DNA of 64,000 nucleotides from Rhodanobacter sp. C01 (GTDB lineage Bacteria > Pseudomonadota > Gammaproteobacteria > Xanthomonadales > Rhodanobacteraceae). Shown piece after piece: positions 23,418 through 40,470 of this stretch (positions are counted from its first letter, which is position 1; every line of letters starts with the position of its first letter). The notes under the pieces are model-generated. The model saw nothing but the letters and a program-made list of their open reading frames with translations. It did no database searches and was not told where the DNA came from. The DNA is taken from contig NZ_MUNR01000011.1 in NCBI RefSeq assembly GCF_002001045.1, forward strand, positions 310,001 through 374,000. Reading direction: 5' to 3'. Made by a program: the position numbers and the translations under genes.

Positions 23418-24731
23418 ATGTTTGGCTACTACCTTGAACTGGGTCTGCGCAGCCTGCGGCGCAATCCTGCGCTCACCGCACTGATGGTGATGGCGATCGG
23501 TTTCGGCGTGGCTGCGTCGATGATCACCTGGTCGGTGTTCAGGGCGGTGTCGGGCAACCCGATTCCGGACAAGTCCGCGCAGCTGTTCACGCCGCAGGTT
23601 GACAGCTGGGGACCGCAGCAGAACCTCAAGGGCGAGCCGCCCGAAGCGCTGAACTATGTTGACGCCATGGCCCTGATGCGCACGCACGAGGCGAAGCGAC
23701 AGACGCTGCTGTATCCGGTGCAACTGTCGGTATTGCCTGGTGGTGACCGCAGTCTGCCGATCGCGGCGAACGGCTATGCAGTGTATGGCGACTTCTTTCC
23801 GATGTTCGAGGTGCCGTTCCTGTATGGCAGCGGCTGGAACACGGCCGACGACCAGGGACGCGAAGCGGTGGTGGTGCTCAGTGCGGAGTTCAATCAGAAG
23901 CTGTTTGACGGTGCCAATAGCGTGGGGCGTGAAGTTACCCTGGAAGGACACGATTACCGTGTCGTCGGCGTGACCGGACACTGGAACCCGCGGCCGCGCT
24001 TCTTCGCGTTGTTCGGCGGCAGCGGCCCGTTCTCCGATCCCACCGATTTCTACCTGCCGTTTACCCGTGCGCTGGATCTGCAGATTGATACGGCAGGCAA
24101 CAACAGCTGCCGCGGCTCGCTGACCTTCACGAACCGCAACGACTGGCTGCAGAGCAATTGCGTCTGGGTCAGCCCGTGGGTGGAACTGGACAGTGCGGCG
24201 GAGGTTGCCCGCTACCGCAGTTTCCTCGAAGCCTATGCCGCCGACCAGCAGCGGGCCGGGCGCTTTGCCTGGGCGCCCAACGTGCGTCTGCGCGACGTGA
24301 TGCAGTGGCTCGACTACGAACACGTGGTGCCGTCGGAGAGCAGCATCGCGCTGCTGGTCTCGCTTGGATTCTTCGCGATCTGCCTGGTCAACACCATCGG
24401 TCTGTTGCTGGCCAAGTTCCTGCGCCGCGCGAACGAGATCGGTGTGCGTCGCGCGCTGGGCGCCTCGCGCCGGGAGATCTACACGCAATACCTGATCGAA
24501 GCGGCCACGGTAGGTCTCGCCGGCGGCGTGCTGGGCCTGTTGTTCACCGCGTTGGGTGTGTCCGGCGTGGGCCTGTTGTTCCCCCCTGAGATCGCGCGGC
24601 TGGCGCATCTGGACCTCTCGCTGGTGGGACTGACCCTGGTCGTGGCCATCCTCGCCACCGTGGCAGCGGCGTTCTATCCCGCCTGGCGTGCTGCGAAGGT
24701 TCAGCCAGCCTGGCAACTGAAGTCCAACTAG
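23418..24731 (+). CDS. ABC permease A1 (MacB/FtsX type, clade I)
   Basis: First of six A-type permeases, 437 residues. One N-terminal membrane helix (about 18-45, ALTALMVMAIGFGVAASMI) is followed by a periplasmic MacB-type domain to about 310 and three C-terminal helices of the FtsX domain. The coupling segment is NEIGVRRALGASRREIYTQYL, and the end PAWRAAKVQPAWQLKSN is typical. Cys231 and Cys248 (CRGS and CVWV) in the periplasmic domain recur in A2-A4 and may form a disulfide. It is paired with B1, 15 nt downstream, and has no ATPase domain of its own. Confidence 0.93.
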   Translation: MFGYYLELGLRSLRRNPALTALMVMAIGFGVAASMITWSVFRAVSGNPIPDKSAQLFTPQVDSWGPQQNLKGEPPEALNYVDAMALMRTHEAKRQTLLYPVQLSVLPGGDRSLPIAANGYAVYGDFFPMFEVPFLYGSGWNTADDQGREAVVVLSAEFNQKLFDGANSVGREVTLEGHDYRVVGVTGHWNPRPRFFALFGGSGPFSDPTDFYLPFTRALDLQIDTAGNNSCRGSLTFTNRNDWLQSNCVWVSPWVELDSAAEVARYRSFLEAYAADQQRAGRFAWAPNVRLRDVMQWLDYEHVVPSESSIALLVSLGFFAICLVNTIGLLLAKFLRRANEIGVRRALGASRREIYTQYLIEAATVGLAGGVLGLLFTALGVSGVGLLFPPEIARLAHLDLSLVGLTLVVAILATVAAAFYPAWRAAKVQPAWQLKSN

Positions 24732-24746
24732 AGGAGGGCCCTGAAC

Positions 24747-25979
24747 ATGCATATCAAACCCATCCTCGCCGCACTGCGCCGTCACAAGGCCGGCACCGTG
24801 CTGATCGCGCTGCAGATCGCGCTGACCCTGGCGATCGTGTGCAACGCGCTGTTCATCATTCACCAGCGACTGGCACATCTGTCCGAACCCACCGGCGTCG
24901 ATGAAGCCAACTTGTTCGTGATCGAGAACCAGTGGGCAGGCCAGACGTCCAACCCGCAGATCGATGCGCAGATCCGGGCTGACCTCGTCGCATTGCGGCA
25001 ATTGCCCGGTGTGCGGGATGCGTCGCCTTCCAATGCCTACCCTTTGGAGGGCAGCGGCTGGGACGACTTCATCACGCTGACACCGGATCAGACGGAGAAG
25101 ACCACAGATGCGGCCGTCTATCTGGGTGACGAGCATCTGATCGACACGCTGGGTCTGCAGCTGGTCGCCGGGCGTAATTTCAGGGCTGACGAAGTCAACA
25201 GCGTCGGACTGCATCAGTACTCGGTTTCGCCGGTGGTCATCGTGACCAGGGCGCTGGCCGAACGTCTGTATCCGGACGGTTCGGCACTGGGCAAGCCGCT
25301 CTATGCGATGACATCGACGCCCAGCACCATTATCGGTGTAGTTGATCGTTTGCAGCGGCAAGGCATCGATGCCTGGTCTGACAGTTATGCCTATCAGTCG
25401 ATGCTGTGGCCGCAACGCCTGGACATGCCACGAGGCATCATCTACATCGTGCGTGCCAAACCGGGCCAGCTGGCTGCCGCGATGCGCGAGGCACCCGCGG
25501 CGCTGTACACGCAGAACCGCATGCGCATCATCGACCCCAAGAATGGCGTACTGAGCTTTGCCCAGGTGCGCGAACGTGCCTATGACAGCGACCGCGGCAT
25601 GGCGATCCTGATGGGCATCATCAGCGTGGTGCTGCTGGCGATCACCGCCGCGGGCATCGTGGGCCTCACCAGCTTCTGGGTTGGTCAGCGGCGCAGGCAG
25701 ATCGGCATTCGCCGTGCGCTGGGCGCGACGCGTAACGACATCCTCAACTATTTCCTCACCGAGAACCTGCTGATCGGGGCGATGGGTGTGCTGATCGGCG
25801 CGGTGCTGGCACTGGTCATCAACCTCTGGATGATCGCGCACGTCGAGATGTCGCGGCTGCCGCTGGCCTATGTGCTGGCTGGTGTGGTCATGCTCCTGCT
25901 GCTCGGTCAGGGCGCGGTGCTGGCGCCGGCGTTGCGCGCCTCGCATGTGTCGCCGGTGGAGGCAACGCGTTCGGTGTGA
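24747..25979 (+). CDS. ABC permease B1 (MacB/FtsX type, clade I)
   Basis: First B-type permease, 410 residues. B-types start M-x-(I/L)-x-P-I-(L/I)-A-A-L-R-(R/K)-H and have one N-terminal helix with the phrase LTLAIVCNALFIIHQ, a periplasmic domain, and three C-terminal helices. Here the FtsX part reads GIVGLTSFWVGQRRRQIGIR and GATRNDILNYFLTENLL, and the protein ends with ALRASHVSPVEATRSV. GAGGAGG lies before its ATG. B-types probably pair with the A-type protein just upstream as a heterodimer; that is inferred from gene order. Confidence 0.92.
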   Translation: MHIKPILAALRRHKAGTVLIALQIALTLAIVCNALFIIHQRLAHLSEPTGVDEANLFVIENQWAGQTSNPQIDAQIRADLVALRQLPGVRDASPSNAYPLEGSGWDDFITLTPDQTEKTTDAAVYLGDEHLIDTLGLQLVAGRNFRADEVNSVGLHQYSVSPVVIVTRALAERLYPDGSALGKPLYAMTSTPSTIIGVVDRLQRQGIDAWSDSYAYQSMLWPQRLDMPRGIIYIVRAKPGQLAAAMREAPAALYTQNRMRIIDPKNGVLSFAQVRERAYDSDRGMAILMGIISVVLLAITAAGIVGLTSFWVGQRRRQIGIRRALGATRNDILNYFLTENLLIGAMGVLIGAVLALVINLWMIAHVEMSRLPLAYVLAGVVMLLLLGQGAVLAPALRASHVSPVEATRSV

Positions 25980-25999
25980 GCGTCTGAAGAAAAAGCGAT

Positions 26000-26025
26000 G
26001 TCATTCCGGTTCGTGCCGGAATGAC
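26000..26025. repeat. GTCATTCC-type hairpin between permease pairs
   Basis: GTCATTCCGG and CCGGAATGAC form a perfect 10-bp stem with a 6-nt loop in the 103-nt gap between B1 and A2. It belongs to the same repeat family as 7893-7973. It could stabilise or terminate part of the long transcript. Confidence 0.75.
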
Positions 26026-26082
26026 GACAAAAGAAATCACCGCTGAGAGTGTCAGTCGGTTCAATCGATGGAGCTCCTTGAT

Positions 26083-27399
26083 ATGTTCACCTACTACCTG
26101 GAACTGGCCCTGCGCAGCCTGAAGCGCAGCCCCGGACTGACCGCACTGATGGTGCTGACGATCGCGTTCGGCGTGGCGGCATCGATGACCACATACTCGG
26201 TGTTCCGTGCGGTATCCGGGGATCCGATTCCGTGGAAGTCGTCGAAGCTGTTCGTGCCGCAGATCGACATGTGGGGGCCGAACGGGCGCGGCAGCGATGG
26301 CGAGCCACCGGATGCGATGGACTACAACGATGCGGTCACCCTGATGCGTGATCACCGTGCCAGGCTGCAGTCGGCGATGTACCAGATTTCCCCGTCGATC
26401 GTGCCGGCGGATGCCAGCAAGCATCCGATCAATGTCAGCGGCCACGCGGTGTACAGCGAGTTCTTCCCGATGCTGGATGTGCCGTTCCTGTACGGCAGCG
26501 GCTGGAGCACCGACGACGACACACAGCGCGCCGCGGTGGTGGTGATCAGCAGCAAGCTCAACCAGAAGCTGTTCGGCGGCAGCAACAGCGTGGGCAAGAC
26601 CGTCAACGTCGAGGGCAAGGATTATCGTGTGGTTGGCGTGCTGAACGACTGGAATCCGCAGCCGCGTTTCTTCGATGTGGTCAACAGCGGTGGGTTCTCC
26701 ACCGGTGTCGAGGATGTGTTCCTGCCGTTCCAGCGGGCCATCTCGGTAGGCATTCCCAACGACGGCAATACCAATTGCAACGCGGTACCGACTGAATCGG
26801 GCTTCGTCGGCCTGCAACATTCCGCCTGCGTGTGGATCGCCTACATGGCCGAGCTGGACGACGCGGCGGCGGTAATCGCCTACAAGCAGTATCTCGATGG
26901 CTATGCGCACGACGCGCAGCAGTCCGGTCGCTTTGGCTGGGCGCCGAATAACCGTCTACGCGACCTGCCGGCGTGGCTGGACAACCAGCACGTGGTGCCC
27001 AGTGATACCAAGGTGTCGCTGCTGGTGGCACTGGGCTTGCTGCTCGCATGCCTGGTCAATACCGCGGGCCTGCTGCTTGCGAAATTCCTGCGTCGCAGCA
27101 GCGAGATCGGCGTGCGGCGCGCACTCGGGGCGCCGCGCATGGCGATCTATGCGCAGTTCCTTGTCGAGGCCGGCATGATCGGCCTGGCCGGCGGCGTGCT
27201 GGGCCTGTTGCTGACCGGTGTCGGTGTGGCCAGCGTGGGTTGGGTATTGCCGAAGGACATCGCCGCGCTGGCACGGGTGGACATCTCACTGCTGCTGATC
27301 ACCTTGCTGGTGGCTGTCATCGCGACCACGCTGGCCGGGCTCTATCCCACTTTCCGTGCTTCACGTGTGCAACCCGCGTGGCAGCTCAAGAGTAATTGA
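26083..27399 (+). CDS. ABC permease A2 (MacB/FtsX type, clade I)
   Basis: A-type permease of 438 residues, closest to A1: both share the V-A-A-S-M, S-V-F-R-A-V-S-G and P-I-P motifs after the first helix. The periplasmic domain has the Cys pair seen in A1 (NTNCNAV and SACVWIA). The C-terminal FtsX part has SSEIGVRRALGAPRMAIYAQFL and ends FRASRVQPAWQLKSN. I use the ATG at 26083 (MFTYYLELALRSL), which matches the other A-types; an in-frame ATG 15 nt upstream is possible. B2 follows after 10 nt. Confidence 0.92.
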   Translation: MFTYYLELALRSLKRSPGLTALMVLTIAFGVAASMTTYSVFRAVSGDPIPWKSSKLFVPQIDMWGPNGRGSDGEPPDAMDYNDAVTLMRDHRARLQSAMYQISPSIVPADASKHPINVSGHAVYSEFFPMLDVPFLYGSGWSTDDDTQRAAVVVISSKLNQKLFGGSNSVGKTVNVEGKDYRVVGVLNDWNPQPRFFDVVNSGGFSTGVEDVFLPFQRAISVGIPNDGNTNCNAVPTESGFVGLQHSACVWIAYMAELDDAAAVIAYKQYLDGYAHDAQQSGRFGWAPNNRLRDLPAWLDNQHVVPSDTKVSLLVALGLLLACLVNTAGLLLAKFLRRSSEIGVRRALGAPRMAIYAQFLVEAGMIGLAGGVLGLLLTGVGVASVGWVLPKDIAALARVDISLLLITLLVAVIATTLAGLYPTFRASRVQPAWQLKSN

Positions 27400-27409
27400 G
27401 GAAACCCTC

Positions 27410-28666
27410 ATGACAATGCATCCCATTCTTGCGGCATTGCGCAAGCACAAGGCCGGTGTCGTCCTCATCTCGCTGCAGATCGCGCTGACCCTGGCGATCG
27501 TCTGCAATGCGGTGTTCATCATCGGCCAGCGTATCGAACGAGTGAACCGGCCGACCGGCCTCGACGAAAACAATCTGTTCCTGATCTCCCAGCAATGGGT
27601 GGGTGCGCCCGGCGGGGACGATCCTGCTGGCGTGGAAAAACTCGACGTGATGCAGCGCGAAGACCTCGCCGCATTGCGCAACCTGCCCGACGTGGCCTCG
27701 GTGGCGCCGAGCAATTCGATACCGTTGCTCAATTCCTCGTGGACGGGCTCGGTGTCGATCAAGCCCGGGCAGCAACTAGGCGACAAGAGCGGCACGCGTA
27801 CGGCGTATTACTTCACAGACGATCAGGTGTTCCCCGCGCTGGGTTTGCGCCTGGTCGCCGGACGCGCGTTTACTGCCGCAGACGTGCAGCACCAGGGCGC
27901 CCGCGATCAGCGCGACCGTCCAGTCATCATCGTCACCAAGGCGCTTGCCGACAAGCTGTTCCCGCAGGGCAGCGCGGTAGGCAAGGTGATCTACTCGGAT
28001 GGCAGCAGCTCGCCGAGCACCATCATCGGCGTGGTCGAGCGCATGCAGATACCAGCCAGCGGCAGCTGGGGCAATGATTTCACCTGGTATTCGACCCTGG
28101 TGCCGACGCGACTGGATTCGAACTTCGCGCGATACGTGGTGCGGGCCAAGCCCGGCCGGCTCGATGCCGCGATGCGTGCCGTGCCGGCCACACTGTATGG
28201 GGTGAACCCGATGCGCGTGCTCGACGACGACAGCGTCAAGTCCTTCGCCGACATCCGCGCCAGTGCCTACCGGGCCGATGTCGGCATGGCGATCCTGATG
28301 GGCGTGGTCTGCCTGATCCTGCTCTGCGTCACCGCAGCCGGCATCGTCGGGCTCACCAGTTTCTGGGTCGGCCAGCGCCATCGGCAGATCGGCGTGCGGC
28401 GTGCCCTCGGCGCCCGCAAGATCGACATCCTGCACTACTTCCAGATCGAGAATCTGCTGATTGCCGGCGTCGGCGTGGTGCTGGGCGTGCTGCTCGCTGT
28501 GGGTCTCAACATCTGGCTGATGACGCATTACGAAATGACGCGCATTCCGGCGTTGTATGTGCTGACCGGCGTGCTCGCGATGCTGGCGATCGGGCAGGCC
28601 GCGGTCTTCGTGCCGGCCCGGCGCGCTTCCAACGTGCCGCCGGTGGTGGCGACACGGGCAGTTTGA
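27410..28666 (+). CDS. ABC permease B2 (MacB/FtsX type, clade I)
   Basis: B-type permease of 418 residues, very similar to B3 next to it: both have HKAGVVLI, LQIALTLAI, FIIGQRIERV, LPDVAS and GARKIDILHYFQ. The ribosome binding site AGGAA lies just after the A2 stop. The last 52 nucleotides, including the stop codon, are repeated exactly at the end of B3, which points to a recent tandem duplication. The C-terminus reads PARRASNVPPVVATRAV. Confidence 0.92.
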   Translation: MTMHPILAALRKHKAGVVLISLQIALTLAIVCNAVFIIGQRIERVNRPTGLDENNLFLISQQWVGAPGGDDPAGVEKLDVMQREDLAALRNLPDVASVAPSNSIPLLNSSWTGSVSIKPGQQLGDKSGTRTAYYFTDDQVFPALGLRLVAGRAFTAADVQHQGARDQRDRPVIIVTKALADKLFPQGSAVGKVIYSDGSSSPSTIIGVVERMQIPASGSWGNDFTWYSTLVPTRLDSNFARYVVRAKPGRLDAAMRAVPATLYGVNPMRVLDDDSVKSFADIRASAYRADVGMAILMGVVCLILLCVTAAGIVGLTSFWVGQRHRQIGVRRALGARKIDILHYFQIENLLIAGVGVVLGVLLAVGLNIWLMTHYEMTRIPALYVLTGVLAMLAIGQAAVFVPARRASNVPPVVATRAV

Positions 28667-28667
28667 T
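28616..28667 (+). repeat. 52-bp direct repeat, copy 1 (end of B2)
   Basis: The last codons and stop of B2 are identical over 52 bp to the end of B3 at 29971-30022. The repeat marks the unit duplicated or recombined between the two genes, one unit being about 1.36 kb. Confidence 0.85.
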
Positions 28668-28681
28668 GACAACCCTTCTCT

Positions 28682-28700
28682 CTTCTGTCACTGACAGAAG
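28682..28700. repeat. hairpin in the B2-B3 gap
   Basis: CTTCTGTCA and TGACAGAAG form a perfect inverted repeat with a 1-nt centre (8-bp stem, 3-nt loop in RNA), flanked by AACCC and GGGTT that can extend pairing. It lies directly after B2 and could act in transcript processing or partial termination. Confidence 0.55.
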
Positions 28701-28729
28701 TGGGTTTCATGTGCAGGAGTAATGGATGC

Positions 28730-28774
28730 ATGTACGGTTATTTCCTTGAACAGGCTCCACGGTGCACGGCATGA
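28730..28774 (+). pseudogene. remnant of a deleted A-type permease start
   Basis: A 14-codon frame, MYGYFLEQAPRCTA, is preceded by AGGAGTAATGGATGC. It matches the beginnings of the A-type genes (M-F-G-Y-Y-L-E-L-A-L-R) and their leader context (compare AGCTTGATGC before A4), then diverges after about nine codons. Everything else of the A gene that should stand between B2 and B3 is missing. Its stop overlaps the B3 start as ATGA, so the stub now serves as a coupled leader. Confidence 0.75.
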
Positions 28775-30021
28775 CCGTGCATCCGATCATCGCGGCCTTG
28801 CACAAGCACAAGGCTGGCGTGGTGCTGATCGCGCTGCAGATCGCGCTGACCCTTGCGATCATCTGCAATGCGATCTTCATCATCGGCCAGCGTATCGAGC
28901 GGGTGAGCCAGCCCACTGGCATGCACGAAGAGAACGACCTGTTCCTGATCACACAGCAGTGGGTGAGTGCGCCCAGTGCCGATGATCCGGGTGGCCTGGA
29001 AAAGCTCGACAGCATGCAGCAAACGGATCTGGCCACCTTGCGCAACCTGCCGGACGTGGCTTCGGCGGCGCCGATCCGTTCGCTGCCATTGCTTCGTTCC
29101 GGCTCGGTCGGAGGGATCGGGCTGAAGCCCCTGCAGCAAAAGGACACCATAGACGCGAATTACTACTATGGCGACGAGCAGGCGTTGTCGACCCTCGGCC
29201 TCAAGCTGGTCGCGGGTCGTGCATTTACCGCCGCCGATGTCCAGCACAAGCCAATGCGCGACCAGGGCGAGCCAGTGCTCGCGATCGTCACCAAACCGGT
29301 GGCAGACAAACTGTTTCCGCAGGGCGACGCCGTCGGCAAGGTGATCTATCTCGACAGCAGCGGCACGCCAACCACCGTTGTCGGCGTGGTCGCGCGACTG
29401 CAGAGCGCAGTCGATACCGCAGGCAGCAGCCTCACTTGGTATTCGGCCCTGTTCCCGGTCCGGCAGGATGCGAATTTCTCGCGCACCGTGGTGCGTGCAA
29501 AACCGGGGCGACTGGAAGCGGCGATGCGCGCCGTACGGCCCGCACTGTATGCGGTCAATCCCATGCGCGTGATCGATGATGAGCAAGGTGTGCGCTCTTT
29601 CGTGGATATCCGTGCCGATGCTTATCGAGCCGACCTGGGGATGGCGATACTGATGAGCGTGGTCTGCCTGATTCTGCTCAGCATCACGGCCGCCGGCATT
29701 GTTGGTCTTACCAGCTTCTGGGTCGGTCAGCGACAGCGGCAGATCGGCGTGCGGCGCGCATTGGGTGCACGCAAGATCGACATCCTGCATTACTTCCAGC
29801 TCGAGAACCTGCTGATTGCCGGCATTGGCGCCGTGATCGGCATCCTGCTCGCGATCGGTCTCAATCTGTGGTTGATCACCCACTTCGAGATGGACCGCAT
29901 GCCGGTGATCTATGTGCTTGTCGGCGTGCTGGCGGTACTGGCATTGGGGCAGGCTGCGGTGTTCGTACCAGCCCGGCGCGCTTCCAACGTGCCGCCGGTG
30001 GTGGCGACACGGGCAGTTTGA
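28771..30021 (+). CDS. ABC permease B3 (MacB/FtsX type, clade I), partnerless
   Basis: B-type permease of 416 residues and a close paralog of B2. It is the only permease in the array not preceded by an intact A-type gene; only a 14-codon A stub lies upstream. The ATG at 28771 (MTVHPIIAALHKHKAG) matches the other B-types; a GTG three codons earlier is possible. The FtsX part reads GIVGLTSFWVGQRQRQIGVR, and it ends PPVVATRAV. It may use A2 or another A protein as partner, or act as a homodimer. Confidence 0.92.
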   Translation: MTVHPIIAALHKHKAGVVLIALQIALTLAIICNAIFIIGQRIERVSQPTGMHEENDLFLITQQWVSAPSADDPGGLEKLDSMQQTDLATLRNLPDVASAAPIRSLPLLRSGSVGGIGLKPLQQKDTIDANYYYGDEQALSTLGLKLVAGRAFTAADVQHKPMRDQGEPVLAIVTKPVADKLFPQGDAVGKVIYLDSSGTPTTVVGVVARLQSAVDTAGSSLTWYSALFPVRQDANFSRTVVRAKPGRLEAAMRAVRPALYAVNPMRVIDDEQGVRSFVDIRADAYRADLGMAILMSVVCLILLSITAAGIVGLTSFWVGQRQRQIGVRRALGARKIDILHYFQLENLLIAGIGAVIGILLAIGLNLWLITHFEMDRMPVIYVLVGVLAVLALGQAAVFVPARRASNVPPVVATRAV

Positions 30022-30022
30022 T
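29971..30022 (+). repeat. 52-bp direct repeat, copy 2 (end of B3)
   Basis: Identical to 28616-28667. See copy 1. Confidence 0.85.
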
Positions 30023-30028
30023 TTTGGA

Positions 30029-30053
30029 CCCGCCTCCTTTTGCGGGAGGCGGG
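30029..30053 (+). repeat. hairpin between B3 and A3
   Basis: CCCGCCTCC and GGAGGCGGG form a 9-bp GC stem with a 7-nt loop containing TTTT, in the 51-nt gap that separates clade I from clade II permeases. There is no T-run after it, so it could slow or process the transcript rather than end it. Confidence 0.5.
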
Positions 30054-30072
30054 ATGCAAGGGGAGTCCGAGC

Positions 30073-31380
30073 ATGTTTATCTACTATCTGGATCTGGCTC
30101 TGCGCAGTCTCAGGCGCAACAAGGCGCTCACGGCGCTGATGGTGCTGGCGATCGCGCTGGGCATCGGCGCCAGCATGACCACGCTGACCGTGCTGCATGT
30201 GCTGTCCGGCGATCCGTTGCCGGGCAAGAGCGCGCAGCTGTACTACCCGCAGGTCGACCCACAGGACATCAAGGGCATGTCCCCAAGCAAGGAGCCGCCG
30301 GATCAGGTCACCCTGATCGATGGTCTGAACCTGCTGCATGCCGTGCGCGCGGATCATCAGGCGCTGATGGCCGGCGGATCGGTGCCACTCCAGCCCGAAC
30401 AGTCTTCGCTTGATCCGTTCTACGTCGACGCGCGTTACACCACGGCGGATTTCTTCGTGATGTTCGACGCACCGTTCCTGTACGGCCGCGGCTGGACCGA
30501 AGCGGATGGCGACGCCAAGGCGCGCCAGGTGGTGATTGCAAAAGCGCTCAACGACAAGCTGTTTGCCGGAGAGAACAGCGTGGGTCGCACACTGCGCATG
30601 GCGGGTACCTCTTTCCGCATCGTGGGCGTACTGGACAGCTGGCAGCCGAACCCGCATTTCTATGATCTCAACACGGGTTCCTACGCCTACAGCGAGCAGG
30701 TGTTCGTGCCGTTGCAGACGATGCTTGATCTGCACCTGAGTCGCAGCGGCTCCAATGATTGCTGGGGGAACGGTGGTGGCGGTACTGACAACATCCTGCC
30801 ATCGGATGAGTGCGTGTGGCTGCAGTTCTGGGTGCAACTGGACAGTCCCGCGAAAGCAGTCGCGTACAAGGAATTCCTGACGCACTACTCACAGGATCAG
30901 AAGACGCTGGGCCGTTTCCAGCGTGCACCGAACGTGCGCCTGCGTAACGTGATGCAGTGGCTCGACTACCAGATGGTCGTGCCCGACGACGTGCGCCTGC
31001 AGAACGGGCTGGCGTTCGGCTTCCTGCTGGTGTGCCTGGTCAACACGGTGGGACTGATGCTGGCCAAGTTCATGCGCCGTGCGGCCGAGTTGGGTGTACG
31101 TCGCGCGCTGGGGGCGTCGCGGCGAGCGCTGTTCGCGCAGTTGCTGATCGAATCCGGCGTGGTCGGTCTGGTCGGTGGCTGCGGTGGTTTGCTGCTGGCG
31201 ATGTTCGGCTTGTGGCTGGTGCGGCAGCGGCCTTCGGACTATGCCGCGCTGGCGCACCTGGACCTGAGCATGTTGTTCATCACCTTCGTGCTGGCAGTAT
31301 GCGCCACGCTGCTGGCCGGCCTGCTGCCCGCCTGGCGCGCCTGCCAGATTGCGCCTGCCCTGCAACTGAAGAGCAACTGA
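30073..31380 (+). CDS. ABC permease A3 (MacB/FtsX type, clade II)
   Basis: A-type permease of 435 residues and the first of clade II. After the first helix it reads G-I-G-A-S-M-T-T-L-T-V with L-S-G-D-P-L-P, unlike A1/A2. The periplasmic Cys pair is present (NDCWG and DECVW). The FtsX part has AAELGVRRALGASRRALFAQ, and it ends WRACQIAPALQLKSN. GGGGAG precedes the ATG at 30073. B4 follows after 8 nt. Confidence 0.92.
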   Translation: MFIYYLDLALRSLRRNKALTALMVLAIALGIGASMTTLTVLHVLSGDPLPGKSAQLYYPQVDPQDIKGMSPSKEPPDQVTLIDGLNLLHAVRADHQALMAGGSVPLQPEQSSLDPFYVDARYTTADFFVMFDAPFLYGRGWTEADGDAKARQVVIAKALNDKLFAGENSVGRTLRMAGTSFRIVGVLDSWQPNPHFYDLNTGSYAYSEQVFVPLQTMLDLHLSRSGSNDCWGNGGGGTDNILPSDECVWLQFWVQLDSPAKAVAYKEFLTHYSQDQKTLGRFQRAPNVRLRNVMQWLDYQMVVPDDVRLQNGLAFGFLLVCLVNTVGLMLAKFMRRAAELGVRRALGASRRALFAQLLIESGVVGLVGGCGGLLLAMFGLWLVRQRPSDYAALAHLDLSMLFITFVLAVCATLLAGLLPAWRACQIAPALQLKSN

Positions 31381-31388
31381 GGCGAGCC

Positions 31389-32621: not shown

Positions 32622-32647
32622 TGCATTCCGTGAAGGGAGCTTGATGC

Positions 32648-33973
32648 ATGTTTGCCTATTACCTGGATCTGGCGGTGCGCAGCCTGAAGCGCAACAAGGT
32701 GCTTACGGCACTGATGGTGCTTGCCATTGCGGTCGGCATCGGTGCCAGCATGACCACGTTGACGGTGATGCATCTGCTGTCTGGTGATCCGCTGCCGGGC
32801 AGGAGCGGTACGTTGTTCTATCCACAGGTGGATGCTGATCCGACCAACGATTACAGCCACGCCGAGCCACTGGACGTGATGGACTATCGCTCGGCAGTGG
32901 ATCTCTGGAGTGCGCATCGCGCGGATCGGCAGACACTCGTCGTGGATAGCAAGCTCAAGGTGCATGCGCCGGAAGTGAACTTGCCGCCGCTGATGGAGAT
33001 GATGCTTTCCACTACATCGGATTTCTTCCCGATGTTCGACGTGCCATTTCAGTACGGCAGCGGCTGGAGTGCGGATGACGATGCGAAGCACGCGCGCGTG
33101 GCCGTGATCTCGGCCGATCTCAACAACAAATTGTTCGGCGGCACGAACAGTGTGGGACACACGCTTCGCCTGCGCGATACCGACGTGCGCATCGTTGGCG
33201 TACTGAAGCCATGGCGACCCTCGCCGCAGTTCTACATGGTGGCGGGCGGACGCTTCGCAAACGGCCAGACGGACGATTTCTATACCAAGCCGGAGGATGT
33301 GTTTACGCCCTTCACCAGTGGTCTCGAGATCAACGATGGCAACTTCTGGCAATTCACCTGCTGGCATATGCCTGACACGCCGGGGCATCTGCAGAATGCG
33401 CCATGCGTATGGATCAGGCTGTGGGTTGAACTGGGCGGTGCCGCGAAGGTAGCTGACTATCGCAGCTTCCTGGCGGGTTATGCCGCGCAGCAGAAGGCGC
33501 TAGGTCGTATCACCCATGCCGACAACACCCGCCTGCGCTCGCTGATGCAATGGCTGGACTTCAATCATGTCGTGCCCAGTGACGTGCACCTGCAAACCTG
33601 GTTGGCATTCGCCTTTCTGGCCATCTGTTTGTTCAACACGGTCGGCCTGTTGCTGGCGAAATTTCTTCGTCGCAGCGGTGAGATCGGTGTGCGTCGGGCG
33701 CTGGGCGCCAGCCGCAGGGCGGTATTCGCGCAATGTCTGGTCGAAGCTGGCCTGATCGGTCTGCTCGGCGGCATCGGTGGGTGGTTGCTCACGCTGACCG
33801 GGCTGTGGCTGGTGCGTCGGCAACCATCCGCGTATGCGGATCTCGCGCATCTGGATGCTCCGATGTTTTTCGCCACGTTCGTGCTGGCCATCATGGTCAG
33901 CCTGCTGGCTGGTGCATTGCCGGCGCTGCGAGCGAGTCGCATTGCGCCCGCGCTGCAGTTGAAGACACTGTAA
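32648..33973 (+). CDS. ABC permease A4 (MacB/FtsX type, clade II)
   Basis: A-type permease of 441 residues, the longest of the six because of a longer periplasmic segment (FYMVAGGRFANGQTDDFY region). The Cys pair is kept (QFTCWHM and APCVWIR). After the first helix it has the clade II pattern G-I-G-A-S-M-T-T-L-T-V-M. The C-terminus is LRASRIAPALQLKTL. It lies 26 nt behind B4, the tightest gap between pairs, and 12 nt before B5. Confidence 0.92.
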   Translation: MFAYYLDLAVRSLKRNKVLTALMVLAIAVGIGASMTTLTVMHLLSGDPLPGRSGTLFYPQVDADPTNDYSHAEPLDVMDYRSAVDLWSAHRADRQTLVVDSKLKVHAPEVNLPPLMEMMLSTTSDFFPMFDVPFQYGSGWSADDDAKHARVAVISADLNNKLFGGTNSVGHTLRLRDTDVRIVGVLKPWRPSPQFYMVAGGRFANGQTDDFYTKPEDVFTPFTSGLEINDGNFWQFTCWHMPDTPGHLQNAPCVWIRLWVELGGAAKVADYRSFLAGYAAQQKALGRITHADNTRLRSLMQWLDFNHVVPSDVHLQTWLAFAFLAICLFNTVGLLLAKFLRRSGEIGVRRALGASRRAVFAQCLVEAGLIGLLGGIGGWLLTLTGLWLVRRQPSAYADLAHLDAPMFFATFVLAIMVSLLAGALPALRASRIAPALQLKTL

Positions 33974-33985
33974 GGGAGCACGAGC

Positions 33986-35200
33986 ATGCAAATTCGCCCC
34001 ATTCTTGCTGCATTGCGACGCCATCGTCTTGCCACCATGCTGGTTGCGCTGGAAATCGCACTTGCCTGTGCAGTGCTGTGCAACGCCTGCTTCCTGATTG
34101 CCAACAGGGTCGCGCTGCTGCACGTGGTGAGCGGCGTGGACGAAACCGCACTGGCAACGGTGCAGTTGACTGGTTATGAGGACAGTCATGCAGTCGATCT
34201 GAATGCGCGTGTTCTGGCTGGCCTGCGCAGTATTCCCGGCATGCAGTCGGTTAGCGTGTTGAACTCCATCCCGTTCGGTGCACGCCGAGGTACCGCGGGT
34301 ATCACGCTGGATATGGCGGGCCAGCACTTTGGCGGGGTGGTCGAGTTCTACGTCGGTGGTCCGGGCAGCATGCAGGCTTTGGGCCTGCATGTGACGTCGG
34401 GTCGTGCCCCCCAAGTGGATGATTTTCGGACTTTCGAAGGCCTGATGCCGACCGATGCATCCGTACAGATCACCCGTTCACTCGCTGAGCATTTATGGCC
34501 GGGTACCGATCCACTGGGCAAGGACTTCTGGCTGGACAAGTGGCATTACCGCGTGGTGGGCGTCATCGATCATCTGGTCCGGCCAGACCCATCCAACTGG
34601 CAGGGAGACAGCAAGGATTGGTCGATCTTCGTGCCGGCACTTCCCGGCAAATACCTCGCCGGCAGTTATCTGTTGCGCGCCGATCCGAAGGACATATCCC
34701 GCGTATTGCGCGATGCCCGCACGACCATTGCGAAGATCGCCCCGGATGCCGTATTCGACGAGGAGGGCAGCAAAACTCTGAGTGACCTTCGCACAGACAG
34801 TTTTCGCCAGGATCGCGCCATGGTCGGCATGCTGGTGGGGGTGATCATCGCGTTGCTGCTGGTGACGGCACTGGGCATCGTGGGCCTGGTCAGCTTCTGG
34901 GTGGCGCAGCGACGCAAGCAGATCGGCATCCGTCGCGCGATTGGCGCCACCCGCGCCGACATCCTGAATTATTTCCAGACCGAGAATTTCCTGATCGTCA
35001 CATTCGGCATCGTGCTGGGCATGTTGCTGGCGTTCGCGCTGAACCTGCTGTTGATGAAGCACTACGAATTGCCGCGGCTGCCGCTGTATTACCTGCCGAT
35101 CGGTGCCTTGATCTTGTGGGGACTGGGTCAGCTGGCCGTGCTCGGTCCGGCGCTGCGTGCGGCGGCGGTGCCGCCGGTAGTGGCAACGCGGTCGGTGTGA
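33986..35200 (+). CDS. ABC permease B5 (MacB/FtsX type, clade II)
   Basis: B-type permease of 404 residues with N-terminal MQIRPILAALRRHRLATML and the helix phrase LACAVLCNACFLIANRV. The periplasmic domain diverges strongly from B1-B3. The FtsX part reads GIVGLVSFWVAQRRKQIGIR and GATRADILNYFQTENFLIV, and the protein ends ALRAAAVPPVVATRSV. GGGAG precedes the ATG. Paired with A4. Confidence 0.92.
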   Translation: MQIRPILAALRRHRLATMLVALEIALACAVLCNACFLIANRVALLHVVSGVDETALATVQLTGYEDSHAVDLNARVLAGLRSIPGMQSVSVLNSIPFGARRGTAGITLDMAGQHFGGVVEFYVGGPGSMQALGLHVTSGRAPQVDDFRTFEGLMPTDASVQITRSLAEHLWPGTDPLGKDFWLDKWHYRVVGVIDHLVRPDPSNWQGDSKDWSIFVPALPGKYLAGSYLLRADPKDISRVLRDARTTIAKIAPDAVFDEEGSKTLSDLRTDSFRQDRAMVGMLVGVIIALLLVTALGIVGLVSFWVAQRRKQIGIRRAIGATRADILNYFQTENFLIVTFGIVLGMLLAFALNLLLMKHYELPRLPLYYLPIGALILWGLGQLAVLGPALRAAAVPPVVATRSV

Positions 35201-35264
35201 TGTTTGAAATATTGCTCCTCCCGGCGCTTGGGAAGAGCCTGCGCTACAACGCATAGGATCAACC

Positions 35265-36572
35265 ATGTTCGCCTACTATCTCGATCTAGCCCTGCACAGC
35301 CTCAGGCGCAACAAGGTGCTCACCACATTGATGGTGCTGGCGCTGGCACTTGGCATAGGCGCCACGATAACCACGCTGACCGTGCTCAAGCTGCTGTCGG
35401 GCGATCCGCTGCCGCAGAAGAGCACGCAATTGTTCTATCCGCAGCTCGATCCCTATCCGAAGGACCAGCCTTTCTCGCGCAGCGGAAAAAAGTTGCCGTG
35501 GCTCATGAGCTACGTCGATGCCATGAATCTGCTGCATGCCCGCAAGGCGGAGCGGCAGGCGGTGATGGCGATGTCGGAGGTCAAGGTGACGCCGCAGGCA
35601 CAGGACGGGAAGCCGTTTTATGCACATGGCGTGATGACCACGGCCGACTTCTTTCCGATGTTCGACGCGCCATTCCAGTACGGCGCCGGCTGGGCTTCGG
35701 CGGACGATGAAAGCCGTGAGCAGGTAGTGGTAATCGCAGGTTTCCTCAACGACAAGCTGTTCGGAGGAGCGAACAGCGTGGGGCGTACGATCCACATCGA
35801 CGATCGTGATTTCCGCATCATCGGCGTGCTGCGGCCGTGGGCGCCGCAGCCGCGCTTCTATGCGCTACATCTGAGCGGGCGCAATTACGGCATGGGCGAC
35901 GCGGTGTTCATGCCCTTGCTCAGCGCGCGCGCCGACGGCATGACGCCGAGCACGGTCATGTCGTACGGGCCGGGGTCCGACATGCAGCATCTGGAGACCG
36001 CCCCAAGCATCTGGCTGGGCTTGTGGGTGCAATTGTCCAGTACCGACGAGGCGTCGGCCTATAAGCTGTTCCTGGGCAACTACGCGCAGCAGCAGGTTGC
36101 GCTGGGGCGTTTCCAGCTGTCCAGGGTGGCCTTGTCGGACCTCATGTCATGGCTGCACAACGAACAGGTGGTGCCCGATGACGTGCGCCTGCAGGCCGGA
36201 CTGGCATTCGGCTTCCTGCTGATCTGCGTGGTGAACACGGTGGGCCTCTTGTTGGCCAAGTGCCTGCGCCGCTCGCGCGAGATCGGCGTGCGCCGTGCGT
36301 TGGGCGCTTCGCGCGGCGCGATCTTCGCGCAGTTCATGGTCGAGGCCGGCATCGTTGGCGTGGCCGGCGGCGTGCTGGGTCTGGGCTTCGCCGAGCTGGG
36401 CTTGTGGGGCATCCGCCACCAGCCCGCGCAGTACGCCAGCCTCGCGCATCTGGACCTGTCGATGTTTCTGTTCACCTTCGTGGTCGCGCTGGTTTCCAGC
36501 CTGATCGCCGGCCTGCTGCCCGCGTGGCGCGCCTGCGTGGTCGCGCCCGCTCCTCAACTCAAAGCTGCCTGA
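35265..36572 (+). CDS. ABC permease A5 (MacB/FtsX type, clade II)
   Basis: A-type permease of 435 residues. Like A6 it lacks the periplasmic Cys pair: the place of the second Cys reads APSIWLGLWVQL. After the first helix it has G-I-G-A-T-I-T-T-L-T-V-L-K and L-S-G-D-P-L-P-Q. The FtsX part is SREIGVRRALGASRGAIFAQFM, and the end is WRACVVAPAPQLKAA. It lies 64 nt behind B5 and 11 nt before B6. Confidence 0.92.
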   Translation: MFAYYLDLALHSLRRNKVLTTLMVLALALGIGATITTLTVLKLLSGDPLPQKSTQLFYPQLDPYPKDQPFSRSGKKLPWLMSYVDAMNLLHARKAERQAVMAMSEVKVTPQAQDGKPFYAHGVMTTADFFPMFDAPFQYGAGWASADDESREQVVVIAGFLNDKLFGGANSVGRTIHIDDRDFRIIGVLRPWAPQPRFYALHLSGRNYGMGDAVFMPLLSARADGMTPSTVMSYGPGSDMQHLETAPSIWLGLWVQLSSTDEASAYKLFLGNYAQQQVALGRFQLSRVALSDLMSWLHNEQVVPDDVRLQAGLAFGFLLICVVNTVGLLLAKCLRRSREIGVRRALGASRGAIFAQFMVEAGIVGVAGGVLGLGFAELGLWGIRHQPAQYASLAHLDLSMFLFTFVVALVSSLIAGLLPAWRACVVAPAPQLKAA

Positions 36573-36583
36573 GGGGAGTCATC

Positions 36584-37789
36584 ATGGAAATCCGTCCGAT
36601 ACTCGCCAGCCTGCGCAAGCACCGCATCCCGGCCGTTCTGATCGTGCTGGAAATCGCACTGGCCTGCGCCGTACTCTGTAACGCCGTCTTCATGATCGGC
36701 CAGCGCATGGCCGACATCCACTGGTCGAATGCGATCGACGAACAGGGCATTTCGGTGGTCACCGTGAATGGGGCCGATCCGAAACTCGCCGCCAGCGAGA
36801 TACCGCGCAATCTGGCCGCCTTGCGCGGTATCGCCGGCGTCACCGCGGCGGCCGCGGCAACCAGCATGCCGCTGGACCAGAATCCGGCCCTGTCGCCCTT
36901 CGTCACCAAGCCGTATGCGACTACCACGGTGAACAGCTCGGTGTATTTCATCGGCGGCGACGGCGAGAAAGCGATGGGGCTGCGCTTGCTGCAAGGTCGA
37001 TGGTTCAATGCGGACGAATACGCGGGCAGCGGTTTCAAGAATTTCGGTTCCACCGGTCATGTCGCGCTGGTCACGCAGAGCGACGCGAACAGGTTGTGGC
37101 CTGGCCAGAGCGCGCTGGGCAAGACCTTGTATACCGACGCCACGGGCTGGACGGTTGTCGGTGTTGTTGCTGATGTACTTGCAGAGGATCCCAAGCTCAG
37201 TGGCCCCGGTGGCATGTATTCCAGCGTGTTCTTTCCGTTGCAGCCTGACGGGGTGATGGGCGACTACATGTTGCGCAGCGTGCCGCAGGATCGCGAGCGC
37301 GTGGTGCGCGAAGCGGTGCAGGTGCTGGGCAAGCTGCAGCCGGGTGCAGTAGTGGAAGGGACGACCTATGCCGGCATGCGTTCCGACTATTTCGCCGATG
37401 CCAACAGCATGGTGTGGATGCTGGTGCTTGTGTGCGTGGTGATGCTGGCGGTGACTGCGTTCGGCATCGTCGGCCTGACCAGCTTCTGGGTGCAGCAGCG
37501 GCGGCGACAGATCGGCATACGCCGCGCCGTGGGCGCCACACGCGGACATATCCTCAGCTATTTCCGTACCGAGAATTTTCTGCTCAGCACGGCCGGGGTA
37601 CTCACGGGCATGGCACTGGCGTTCGGCATCAACCTGTACCTGATGACGCATTACGAGATGAGTCGCATGCCCTGGTATTACCTGCCCGGGAGTGCCATCG
37701 CACTTTGGCTGCTCGGTCAGCTTGCCGTGCTCGGCCCGGCACTGCGCGCCGCCGCGGTGCCACCGGTGGTGGCGACGCGATCAGTGTGA
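36584..37789 (+). CDS. ABC permease B6 (MacB/FtsX type, clade II)
   Basis: B-type permease of 401 residues, the shortest of the B set. N-terminus MEIRPILASLRKHRIPAVL with LACAVLCNAVFMIGQRM in the first helix. FtsX region GIVGLTSFWVQQRRRQIGIR and GATRGHILSYFRTENFL. End ALRAAAVPPVVATRSV. GGGGAG lies 7 nt before the ATG. Paired with A5; a palindromic repeat follows it. Confidence 0.92.
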   Translation: MEIRPILASLRKHRIPAVLIVLEIALACAVLCNAVFMIGQRMADIHWSNAIDEQGISVVTVNGADPKLAASEIPRNLAALRGIAGVTAAAAATSMPLDQNPALSPFVTKPYATTTVNSSVYFIGGDGEKAMGLRLLQGRWFNADEYAGSGFKNFGSTGHVALVTQSDANRLWPGQSALGKTLYTDATGWTVVGVVADVLAEDPKLSGPGGMYSSVFFPLQPDGVMGDYMLRSVPQDRERVVREAVQVLGKLQPGAVVEGTTYAGMRSDYFADANSMVWMLVLVCVVMLAVTAFGIVGLTSFWVQQRRRQIGIRRAVGATRGHILSYFRTENFLLSTAGVLTGMALAFGINLYLMTHYEMSRMPWYYLPGSAIALWLLGQLAVLGPALRAAAVPPVVATRSV

Positions 37790-37805
37790 CGACTGGGGGG
37801 TCTGC

Positions 37806-37876
37806 AGGAGCGCACCCTGTGCGCGATGCTTTGGCGTGTACGTGCAGAAAGTGCATCTTGCACAGGGTGCGCTCCT
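37806..37876. repeat. TAGGAGCGCACC-type palindromic repeat, copy 1
   Basis: AGGAGCGCACCCTGTGC (37806-37822) and its exact complement (37860-37876) face each other across 37 bp in the gap between B6 and A6. A second copy of the same family, with GCGCGATGC following the arm, is at 58891-58960. This looks like a REP-type element as scattered in related genomes. Confidence 0.8.
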
Positions 37877-37918
37877 ACAAGGCGGCATGTGATTTCAATC
37901 ATTGACGGGATACATGGA

Positions 37919-39226
37919 ATGTTCGGTTATTACCTCGATCTGGCTTTGCGCAGCCTGACGCGCAGCAAGGTGCTTACGGCGCTGATGGTGCTCGCGATCG
38001 GGCTCGGCATCGGCGCCAGCATGACGATGATCACCGTGCTGCACGTGATGTCGGGCGATCCGTTGCCGGGGCGCAGCAACCAGTTGTATTACCCGCAGCT
38101 CGACCCGTTGCCGTTGAAATATCAGCAAAGTGCATACGGCCCGGATCCGCGCTTGAACTTCACCTGGCCCGATGCGATGGCCCTGCTGGCGGCGCATCGC
38201 GCCGAGCGGCAGGCAGCGATGGCCGGTGGCGCCTTGCTGGTCCGACCGGCGCAGACGGGATTGCGGCCGTTCTACGTCGATGGTCGCTACGCCACCACCG
38301 ATTTCTTTGCGATGTTCGGCGTGACGTTCCTGCGCGGCCAGGGCTGGTCGGGGGCGGATGATGATGGACGGGCACGGGTAGTAGTGCTGAGCGAAAAGCT
38401 CAGTCGCAAGCTGTTTGGCACGAATGACAGCGTTGGCCGCACGGTGCGCTTCGGTGACGCCGACTTGCGTGTCATCGGCGTCAGCGCCGACTGGCAGCCG
38501 CAGCCGATGTTCTATGCGGATGCCTCAGCCAAGGTGTTTGATGATGCCGATCAGTTCTTCCTGCCGTTGTCGACGGCGTTGGACCTGAAGTTCGATACCA
38601 ACAGCAACCAGTCGAGTTGGTCGTCGTTCGAAGGTGACATGAAAAGCCCGGTACTCACCTGGTTGCAGGTGTGGGTGCAGTTGAAGGATGCAGGGCAGGT
38701 TGCTGCATATCGGCAATTCCTGATCGACTACTCGGCGCAACAGAAGGCGCTGGGCCGCTTCGAGCGGCCCCCAACCCAGGCCCGGCTATACGGACTGATG
38801 AGCTGGCTGGATCGCCAGAATCTGGTGCCTGCCGACGTCCGTCTGCAGCTGTGGCTGGCGCTGGGTTTCCTGCTTGTTTGCATGATCAACATCGTGGCGC
38901 TGCTGCTGGCGAAGTTTCTGCGCCGCAGTGGTGAGGTCAGTGTCCGGCGTGCGCTGGGTGCGCGGCGGCGCGATATCTTCCTGCAGTTCGGCATCGAGTC
39001 GGCGGTGATCGGTCTGGCCGGCGGTGTGCTGGGGCTGGTGATTGCCCAGCTGGGGCTGTGGAGCGTGCGGCATCGCCCGGACGACTACGCGCATCTGGCG
39101 CAAATGGACGTCTCCATGTTGATCGGCACCTTCGTGCTCGCAGTGCTGGCCAGCGTGCTGGCCGGTCTGTTGCCGGCCTGGCGTGCATGCCGTGTGGCGC
39201 CTGCGCTGCAGTTGAAGACCCTCTAG
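37919..39226 (+). CDS. ABC permease A6 (MacB/FtsX type, clade II)
   Basis: A-type permease of 435 residues. It lacks the Cys pair of A1-A4 (SNQSSWSSF and PVLTWLQVWVQL at the two places). After the first helix it has G-I-G-A-S-M-T-M-I-T-V and M-S-G-D-P-L-P. The FtsX segment SGEVSVRRALGARRRDIFLQF differs slightly from the I-G-V-R-R of other members. It ends WRACRVAPALQLKTL. I use the ATG at 37919; earlier in-frame codons come from the palindromic repeat. Confidence 0.92.
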   Translation: MFGYYLDLALRSLTRSKVLTALMVLAIGLGIGASMTMITVLHVMSGDPLPGRSNQLYYPQLDPLPLKYQQSAYGPDPRLNFTWPDAMALLAAHRAERQAAMAGGALLVRPAQTGLRPFYVDGRYATTDFFAMFGVTFLRGQGWSGADDDGRARVVVLSEKLSRKLFGTNDSVGRTVRFGDADLRVIGVSADWQPQPMFYADASAKVFDDADQFFLPLSTALDLKFDTNSNQSSWSSFEGDMKSPVLTWLQVWVQLKDAGQVAAYRQFLIDYSAQQKALGRFERPPTQARLYGLMSWLDRQNLVPADVRLQLWLALGFLLVCMINIVALLLAKFLRRSGEVSVRRALGARRRDIFLQFGIESAVIGLAGGVLGLVIAQLGLWSVRHRPDDYAHLAQMDVSMLIGTFVLAVLASVLAGLLPAWRACRVAPALQLKTL

Positions 39227-39234
39227 GAATGACC

Positions 39235-40470
39235 ATGCAACTGCGACCGATTCTTTCCAGCCTGAGCCACCACAAGCTCACCGCGTCATTGCTGATGCTG
39301 CAGGTGGCACTGACCTGCGCGATCGTCTGCAACGTGGTGTTCATGATCACCAACCGGCTGGAACAGGTCACACTGCCCAGCGGTGTCGACGAAGCCGGGT
39401 TGTCGATGCTCAACAGTGAATCCATCGACAAAAATGAAAACAGACTGGCGCGCCACGCCGCCGATCTGGCCGGGTTGCGCGCGATACCTGGCGTCACTGC
39501 GGCGGTGGCTGTCGATACGCTGCCGCTGGGGCGAGACGAGTCGTCTTATGGCACCTGCGCCAGCGCCGAGGACCTGGCCAAGGCGATCGCTGCCCGTTCG
39601 ATGATGCGTGAGGGCCTTTGCGTGCAACCGGCGGTTTATGGCGGTACCCAGGGCGAAGTCGGGGCACTGGGACTGCATCTGATCGCAGGGCGCGATTTCC
39701 GCGCCGATGAATATGTGGCCGGCTCGGGCGTGTCCGTGGTGATCCTCAGTCGTGCGCTTGCGGAAAAGCTCTATCCCGGCAAGGCCGCGCTGGGTCAGAG
39801 CATCTATGCCGGCGGCGACAAGCCGATCCGTGTCATCGGCATCGTCGATACGTTGTTGCGTCCCCACTTGCGCGCGTCGGAAGTGAACCAGTACGCGATG
39901 TTGTTTCCCATGTTGCCGAACGACGGCGAGGTGACGTACCTGTTGCGCAGTGCGCCGCAGGATCGCGAACGCGTACTGCGGATAGCCGCAGAGAAGCTCG
40001 AACAGCTCAGTCCCGAACGGATCATTCCAGCAAGCAGCATACGCACCTATACCCAGATGCGTGATGCATACTTCCAGCGCGACACCACCATGATCGGCCT
40101 GCTGCTGGCCTCCGGGCTCGGCCTGCTGTTCGTCACGGCCTTGGGCATCACCGGACTGGCCAATTTCTGGGTGCAGCAGCGCCGCCGCAGCATCGGCATC
40201 CGCCGCGCGATCGGCGCCACCCGTGGCGATATCCTGCGCTACTTCCAGGCCGAGAACTTCCTGATCGTCACTGCCGGTATCGTGCTGGGCCTGTTACTGG
40301 CGGTCATGTTGAATCTGGTGCTGATGAAACACTATGAGCTGCCGCGGCTGCCGCTGTACTACCTGCCGATTGGCGCGCTTGTATTGTGGCTCCTTTGCCA
40401 ATTGGCCGTGCTCGGCCCGGCGCTGCGCGCGGCGGCAGTGCCGCCGGTGGTGGCGACGCGGTCGGTATAA
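39235..40470 (+). CDS. ABC permease B7 (MacB/FtsX type, clade II)
   Basis: Last permease of the array, 411 residues. N-terminus MQLRPILSSLSHHKLTASL with LTCAIVCNVVFMITNRL. Two Cys residues occur in the periplasmic part (GTCASAE and EGLCVQP), absent from most B-types. FtsX region GITGLANFWVQQRRRSIGIR and GATRGDILRYFQAENFLIV. End ALRAAAVPPVVATRSV. An ATG two codons earlier (39229) is possible, but AGGA is better spaced for 39235. Paired with A6. Confidence 0.92.
   Translation: MQLRPILSSLSHHKLTASLLMLQVALTCAIVCNVVFMITNRLEQVTLPSGVDEAGLSMLNSESIDKNENRLARHAADLAGLRAIPGVTAAVAVDTLPLGRDESSYGTCASAEDLAKAIAARSMMREGLCVQPAVYGGTQGEVGALGLHLIAGRDFRADEYVAGSGVSVVILSRALAEKLYPGKAALGQSIYAGGDKPIRVIGIVDTLLRPHLRASEVNQYAMLFPMLPNDGEVTYLLRSAPQDRERVLRIAAEKLEQLSPERIIPASSIRTYTQMRDAYFQRDTTMIGLLLASGLGLLFVTALGITGLANFWVQQRRRSIGIRRAIGATRGDILRYFQAENFLIVTAGIVLGLLLAVMLNLVLMKHYELPRLPLYYLPIGALVLWLLCQLAVLGPALRAAAVPPVVATRSV

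Follow-up and report, generated by a model that had tools for sequence, protein, structure and literature searches.

The window analysed in this study, a 64,000-nt stretch of Rhodanobacter sp. C01 DNA (RefSeq assembly GCF_002001045.1, contig NZ_MUNR01000011.1, positions 310,001 to 374,000), contains a locus in which 13 consecutive FtsX/MacB-type permease genes of two types, designated A and B, follow single genes for a periplasmic adaptor, an ATP-binding protein and a TolC-type outer membrane protein. The locus probably encodes a stress-inducible, MacB-like exporter of the type VII ATP-binding cassette (ABC) class, in which one fixed engine would be combined with exchangeable A-B permease pairs. 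This reading is built on gene content, gene order, the promoter site, partner co-evolution, the conservation pattern and purifying selection, all computed directly, as was the lack of an intact neighbouring ATPase of this class at the dispersed A-B pairs examined. The exporter class is a known one; the layout with many permeases per engine is unusual and well conserved. The genome carrying the window is 3.98 Mb in size, and its host is, as we take it, a soil bacterium.

All 13 permeases are encoded on the + strand and span 23418-40470 in the list of open reading frames (ORFs). Pfam detected FtsX in 13/13 and MacB_PCD in 12/13 of them (the gene at 33986-35200 has FtsX alone), ABC_tran in 0/13 of these window permeases, and, ahead of them, one adaptor, one ABC_tran ATPase and one OEP/TolC gene. 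This agrees with the initial annotation, which had described 13 ATPase-less permeases in a row on one strand behind one gene of each of these three kinds. Likely starts were placed inside the longest ORFs for A3 (30073), B3 (31389), B5 (36584), A6 (37919) and B6 (about 39235), and the adaptor N-terminus MIRDTSA, a conserved start, fits an ATG at 19905 or 19908. The features of the locus are as follows.

19848..19862, + strand: sigma-54-type promoter site TGGCAT-N5-TTGC, about 60 bp 5′ of the adaptor start
19905..21179, + strand: periplasmic adaptor, HlyD/RND_mfp type (Pfam HlyD_D23, HlyD_3; TIGR01730; ATG 19905 or 19908)
21243..21965, + strand: ATP-binding protein, LolD/FtsE/DarD type, 240 aa (ABC_tran; best NCBIfam match DarD, under cut-off)
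22011..23354, + strand: TolC-type outer membrane protein (OEP, TIGR01844)
23418..24731, + strand: permease A1 (MacB_PCD and FtsX; profile A)
24747..25979, + strand: permease B1 (MacB_PCD and FtsX; profile B)
26083..27399, + strand: permease A2 (Pfam; profile A)
27410..28666, + strand: permease B2 (Pfam; profile B)
28771..30021, + strand: permease B2b, unpaired B, 72% identical to B2 (Pfam; profile B; dN/dS 0.155)
30073..31380, + strand: permease A3 (Pfam; profile A)
31389..32621, + strand: permease B3 (Pfam; profile B)
32648..33973, + strand: permease A4 (Pfam; profile A)
33986..35200, + strand: permease B4, FtsX domain only by Pfam (profile B)
35265..36572, + strand: permease A5 (Pfam; profile A)
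36584..37789, + strand: permease B5 (Pfam; profile B)
37919..39226, + strand: permease A6 (Pfam; profile A)
39235..40470, + strand: permease B6 (Pfam; profile B)
40561..42384, + strand: DUF885 protein, a variable companion (Pfam; present at some loci only)
42517..43872, + strand: sigma-54-dependent response regulator (Response_reg, Sigma54_activat and HTH_8; position kept in relatives)
44313..45752, + strand: sensor histidine kinase with HAMP and HATPase_c (Pfam; position kept in relatives)

Type profiles gave the permease order A-B-A-B-B-A-B-A-B-A-B-A-B (6 A and 7 B), with an unpaired B at 28771-30021. Strict A/B alternation in the window, as initially annotated, was ruled out by this one gene. 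Within the window, A paralogues are 44-57% identical to each other and B paralogues 38-72%, and A and B share 23-33%. In both types the ATPase-facing (coupling) segment is conserved and the periplasmic part divergent, in line with the earlier proposal that the periplasmic domains have diversified. The predicted fold of the A model is closest to MacB, and MacB-type periplasmic core domains were recognized by fold in both permease models. The ratio of nonsynonymous to synonymous substitution (dN/dS) was 0.087-0.273, indicating purifying selection on 13/13 window permeases, which argues against dead copies.

Seventy loci were annotated with profiles built from the window genes. The sample was not random: ten loci were the window and those of nine genomes with a close TolC, and sixty were chosen from the list of profile matches in a way that favoured long contigs and a wide spread of genera. 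Two contig-end stretches, G030 and the C11 part of G028, were removed before counting. A locus running from the adaptor through a downstream DUF885, response regulator or kinase gene was taken as complete, which gave 67 loci from 17 genera and set apart G024, G016 and G028 (C4) as incomplete. The adaptor profile matched 216 of 233 genomes of the same family at E ≤ 1e-90, the named close matches being Rhodanobacter, Dyella, Frateuria, Fulvimonas and Luteibacter, whose family we take to be Rhodanobacteraceae.

One adaptor and one ATPase were found in 67/67 complete loci, and the ATPase at the head of the operon was the only one, consistent with the earlier suggestion that several A/B heterodimers depend on one ATPase and one adaptor. 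Counting the permeases of the same locus in related genomes, as the initial annotation had proposed, gave 2-22 intact genes per complete locus with a median of 10. Since 13 or more were present in 21 of the 67, thirteen was ruled out as an exceptional number for the genera examined. The longest array, in G195, has 11 pairs. A and B alternate without exception in 61 of the complete loci; the other six have broken A or B frames (G007, G031, G042 and G154) or a B without an A (the window and G018). An HlyD-type adaptor was present in all 69 loci with a visible head. A TolC gene was present in just 17 of these 69 (the G028 head, on another contig, has one too), so the single shared TolC described earlier is not a defining part. 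The DUF885 gene adjoins many loci and is missing at many others. For genera g4, g5, g19, g22 and g25, judged from A-type match counts and not from reading the loci, the A-type search returned a single gene for 35 of 38 genomes; of the other three, two had none and one had two. This search and the order-wide B-type one scored mostly 6-7 candidates per genome, and only low counts, those of these five genera, were put to use. Large arrays occur in many of the relatives examined, though not throughout the genera of the family.

Two loci have peculiarities of their own. The sole ATPase of a nine-pair locus in the one-contig genome G206 (L217, about 1605-2329) reads as two overlapping ORFs, which may reflect a frameshift or a sequencing error. 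Two pairs of equal-scoring A matches lie on opposite strands at G197:C44 79298-102757 and may represent an inverted array duplication or an assembly artefact.

Adjacent A and B genes behave as a unit. A-A distances between loci correlated with the B-B distances of their partners with r = 0.933 (372 adjacent pairs, 70 loci). When B genes were shuffled among the pairs within each locus, the mean r was 0.050 and the maximum 0.092 (200 shuffles); when each B was matched with the following A instead, r was 0.278, above its own shuffles (maximum 0.097). When each genus was represented by a single locus (97 pairs, 17 loci), the partner r was 0.924 (shuffles at most 0.222) and the neighbouring-pair r was 0.205, within its shuffles (at most 0.242). 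The best A and the best B match in another locus belonged to the same pair in 20999 of 24555 comparisons (0.855; expected 0.207), and the intergenic gap has a median of 10 bp from A to B and 60.5 bp from B to A. Judged from these sequences, fixed A:B heterodimers are favoured over free mixing, and the co-evolution argues for a heterodimeric rather than a MacB-like homodimeric permease. The initial proposal of a combinatorial exporter is not supported in the sense of A and B from different pairs mixing, as every A keeps its own B.

The nearest relative of each of 374 A and 379 B genes was never in the same locus, and the pairs are therefore old; recent tandem duplication was ruled out on this ground. 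Average-linkage clustering at a cut of 0.42 gave 23 pair groups, six of which contain 319 of the 372 pairs, and groups were found repeatedly across genera. Their order is A-C-B-D-E-F in the window and in G018, and other loci vary around it.

A sigma-54-type site, TGGCAY-N5-TTGC, was found 5′ of the adaptor in 68/68 loci with enough upstream sequence (67 perfect sites and one with a single mismatch), the count leaving out G028, with no head in its stretch, and G215. The first base of the site lies mostly 49-64 bp from the start codon, with extremes of 25 and 69 bp and the imperfect site at 47 bp; shuffled upstream sequences would be expected to contain 0.75 such sites in total. No perfect site occurred in 308 internal B-A junctions. 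Given this upstream site and the sigma-54 regulator and kinase next to the array, the operon is likely transcribed as one inducible unit, with the response regulator at 42517-43872 as its likely activator.

The window also shows what surrounds the operon. Beyond the kinase lie genes for an SPFH/band-7 protein and a ThrE-type exporter (45790-48480, + strand), which several relatives retain at this position. A 640-codon ORF (17729-19651, - strand), divergent from the operon, has no Pfam match; parts of it may resemble caspase-like or legumain-like peptidases, as we presume.

A-B pairs also occur away from the array. The genome of the window has two additional pairs, on contigs C7 and C9, and 20 further stretches from five congeners, taken from the strongest matches listed, contained an isolated pair in 19 cases; the remaining one, L238, is the far end of an array and not a dispersed pair. 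An intact ATPase, adaptor or strong TolC match of the array type was found at 0/21 dispersed pairs (six genomes; flanks of 3.8-5.6 kb), L249 having a weak TolC match (28 bits) 2.5 kb off. Dedicated ATPases for most pairs elsewhere, which the initial annotation had named as evidence against sharing, were thus not seen in the fetched flanks. As a positive control, the same ATPase profile gave 133-190 bits in five of the six other FtsX loci of the own genome (L223-L228), the sixth having its ATPase match at the edge of the stretch. The coupling segments of dispersed pairs matched the array consensus at 0.58-0.94 (lowest in L243), and the best match in L223-L228 was 0.47. In 20 of the 21 pairs, A and B were nearest to the same array group. 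At L240 (about 4457-4690), a 77-codon ATPase remnant stands directly before the A-B pair, in the order of a single-pair operon, and is perhaps a fossil of ATPase loss.

The neighbours of the dispersed pairs are varied. A BlaI-type repressor lies near four of the 21 (L222, L237, L242 and L247, in four of the six genomes), identified by Pfam in L222 and by resemblance of protein starts in the other three; L222 also has an M56 BlaR1-type gene and a divergent prolyl oligopeptidase-type gene (Pfam). L221 comes after a histidine kinase and a LytTR regulator, a sigma-54-type regulator and kinase are in the flanks of L232, L236, L241, L244 and L248 (Pfam on L232), and L239 adjoins MbtH, thioesterases and a cluster with polyketide synthase, AMP-ligase and ABC genes. 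A sigma-54 site before dispersed pairs was ruled out as a general rule, as 18 of the 21 have 2-4 mismatches at best. L235, L239 and L249, from three genomes, have an identical 15-mer, TGGCACGATATTCGC, with one sigma-54 mismatch, 244, 67 and 254 bp before A, respectively; it is perhaps a variant sigma-54 site or another motif.

Order-wide, a B-type match at E ≤ 1e-50 was found in 192 of 299 genomes searched, the own family included. Nineteen loci outside the family, which were among the best-scoring order-wide B-type matches, all belong to one family (f2). Twelve have exactly one pair, arranged adaptor-ATPase-A-B and then response regulator and kinase; the adaptor of one f2 locus falls outside its stretch. 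Two others have one pair and extra B genes, two have two pairs, and three have five pairs (one with an extra B). The one-pair form being the commonest in f2, a single-pair locus is the likely starting point, and the sequences suggest that arrays likely arose through the addition of pairs behind one engine. At the array ends of the out-of-family loci L272, L273 and L274, low-scoring extra B genes (183-207 bits) were seen, again a B without an A.

For A and B alike, the halves of ADOP (TIGR03434) were the best model match, with Dar, Lol and MacB models weaker and none reaching its cut-off. ADOP was matched by 41/41 A and 42/42 B permeases scanned at E ≤ 1e-10; in the 803-position model, A1 and A3 match positions 7-401 and B1 and B6 match 410/411-801. 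The ADOP cut-off of 622.3 bits was unmet (A1, 171.5; B1, 187.2), each permease covering one model half. ADOP is one fused protein of about 800 aa, whereas the halves are separate genes here, and the window permeases, unlike ADOP, sit in an ordered operon with an ATPase, an adaptor and a sigma-54-type promoter. ADOP-type genes are annotated as orphan and multi-copy; RAST annotation of two Dyadobacter genomes, for example, counts 28 and 33 of them (PMC11573002).

The locus resembles MacAB-TolC in its MacB_PCD and FtsX permeases, HlyD-type adaptor and TolC-type channel. It differs in having the ATPase on a separate 240-aa protein, two different permease subunits and many permeases per ATPase, and its adaptor, which is over the TIGR01730 cut-off, is far under that of the MacA equivalog (57.4 of 342). 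A separate ATPase with an ATPase-less permease is shared with the darobactin exporter DarBCD (NF038008/NF038010/NF038007), but all Dar models are under cut-off (ATPase, 258.7 of 375; adaptor, 85 of 450; permease B1, 23.2 of 700). LolCDE likewise has two different permeases with four transmembrane segments over a separate ATPase dimer (PMC5985334, PMC8277102), and type VII permeases include heterodimeric and fused forms (same sources). The window proteins stay under the Lol cut-offs (LolD, 219.5 of 307.75; LolCE, 26.6 of 362.45), and, in contrast to LolCDE, adaptor and channel genes are in the operon here. In group II energy-coupling factor (ECF) vitamin importers, one energising module is common to several exchangeable, separately encoded substrate-specific membrane parts. 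These are an analogy only, being importers made of unrelated proteins. SmaCDEF of Stenotrophomonas maltophilia was considered as an A-B exporter locus and rejected for the primer-carrying genome G307 (species unconfirmed); the published smaCDEF primer (PMC11356428) matches exactly at G307:C1:1540337, and B-type genes scoring >400 bits lie at 3930205 and 4237496. No account of permease arrays sharing one ATPase was found in literature titles and the starts of abstracts, subscription papers being outside the scope.

Other explanations of the array were weighed. If A and B of different pairs mixed freely, up to 6 × 7 heterodimers would be formed on one ATPase. The ATPase-facing segments common to each type would suit such an exporter, and so would the unpaired B, which is under purifying selection (dN/dS 0.155) and has no A of its own, so that at least one A probably serves two B; free mixing is nevertheless improbable, given the pair-by-pair co-evolution (r 0.93 against 0.28 for the neighbouring A), the short gaps inside pairs and the dispersed copies, which move as pairs. 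It is also unlikely that the pairs run on other ATPases of the cell (LolD, FtsE or MacB-type) while the operon ATPase serves one or two of them. Eleven other ATPases of the class are present in the own genome at E ≤ 1e-30 (36-46% identical) and dispersed pairs have no intact ATPase nearby, as this would predict, but no complete locus has a second ATPase at its head, and the dispersed coupling segments match the array consensus better than those of the other own-genome FtsX loci do.

The permeases might instead be ATP-driven periplasmic switches working by FtsEX-like mechanotransmission, for example with envelope enzymes such as DUF885, and would then not be exporters. Type VII permeases perform both transport and mechanotransmission (PMC5985334, PMC8277102) and many loci adjoin a DUF885 gene, yet others lack it, every visible head has an HlyD-type adaptor and some a TolC gene, and the MacB-type periplasmic core was recognized in 12/13 permeases by Pfam and in two models by fold; we give this explanation little weight. 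A neutral pile-up of recent tandem duplicates, mostly non-functional, was already disfavoured and is very improbable: broken A or B frames do occur in four genomes, but the nearest relatives never share a locus, purifying selection acts on all 13 window genes and pair groups recur between genera.

An inducible exporter with a fixed engine and exchangeable A-B pairs could work as follows. The histidine kinase would sense an envelope or antimicrobial signal, and the sigma-54 response regulator would then open the single promoter 5′ of the adaptor. Every A would partner the adjoining B, and the single ATPase would form the nucleotide-binding dimer beneath any of several A:B heterodimers, like LolD under LolC:LolE. 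The single adaptor would connect every pair to a TolC-type channel, its own here and presumably another TolC where the locus has none. Dispersed A-B pairs, controlled by regulators of their own, would probably be driven by this ATPase and adaptor as well. Assembly, export and the sharing of the ATPase are inferred from sequence; the sharing is supported by the gene content, the conserved coupling segment and the lack of an alternative ATPase in the locus. Since the periplasmic domains differ from pair to pair, what each pair handles would, we infer, differ too. The substrates are probably antimicrobial peptides, lipopeptides or similar compounds, as suggested by a few dispersed-pair neighbourhoods and by relatives known for antimicrobial resistance, namely MacAB-TolC and the pneumococcal Spr0693-0695 pump (PMC5768738).

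Several points weigh against this exporter. The first transmembrane stretch and the C-terminal tail are also highly conserved, besides the coupling segment; B2b departs from a strict pair rule; and in 52 of the 69 loci with a visible head no TolC gene is present. The A and B trees would also correlate if pairs were simply copied and moved together without their proteins touching. Any of the 11 additional ATPases of the own genome could in principle serve some pairs, and the L240 remnant leaves room for an earlier loss of dedicated ATPases at dispersed pairs. The substrate assignment depends on few neighbourhoods.

A wider hub-and-spoke arrangement, in which the one ATPase and adaptor set at the operon would energise both the array (up to 22 permeases) and scattered pairs with sensors of their own (BlaI/BlaR1, LytS/LytTR or sigma-54 regulators), is put forward tentatively, its chance being a little short of even. 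If it is true, the engine would remain constant as the parts that handle cargo come and go, each under separate regulation; the system would be the export equivalent of the ECF importers, and ADOP-type orphan permeases elsewhere may work in the same way. The operon offers a plausible engine and a genetic handle for such ATPase-less permeases. With 1 to 11 pairs at the same locus in related species, it can be used to test whether ABC exporters share one energising unit; if they do, adding permease pairs alone could make an inducible efflux response broader in range.

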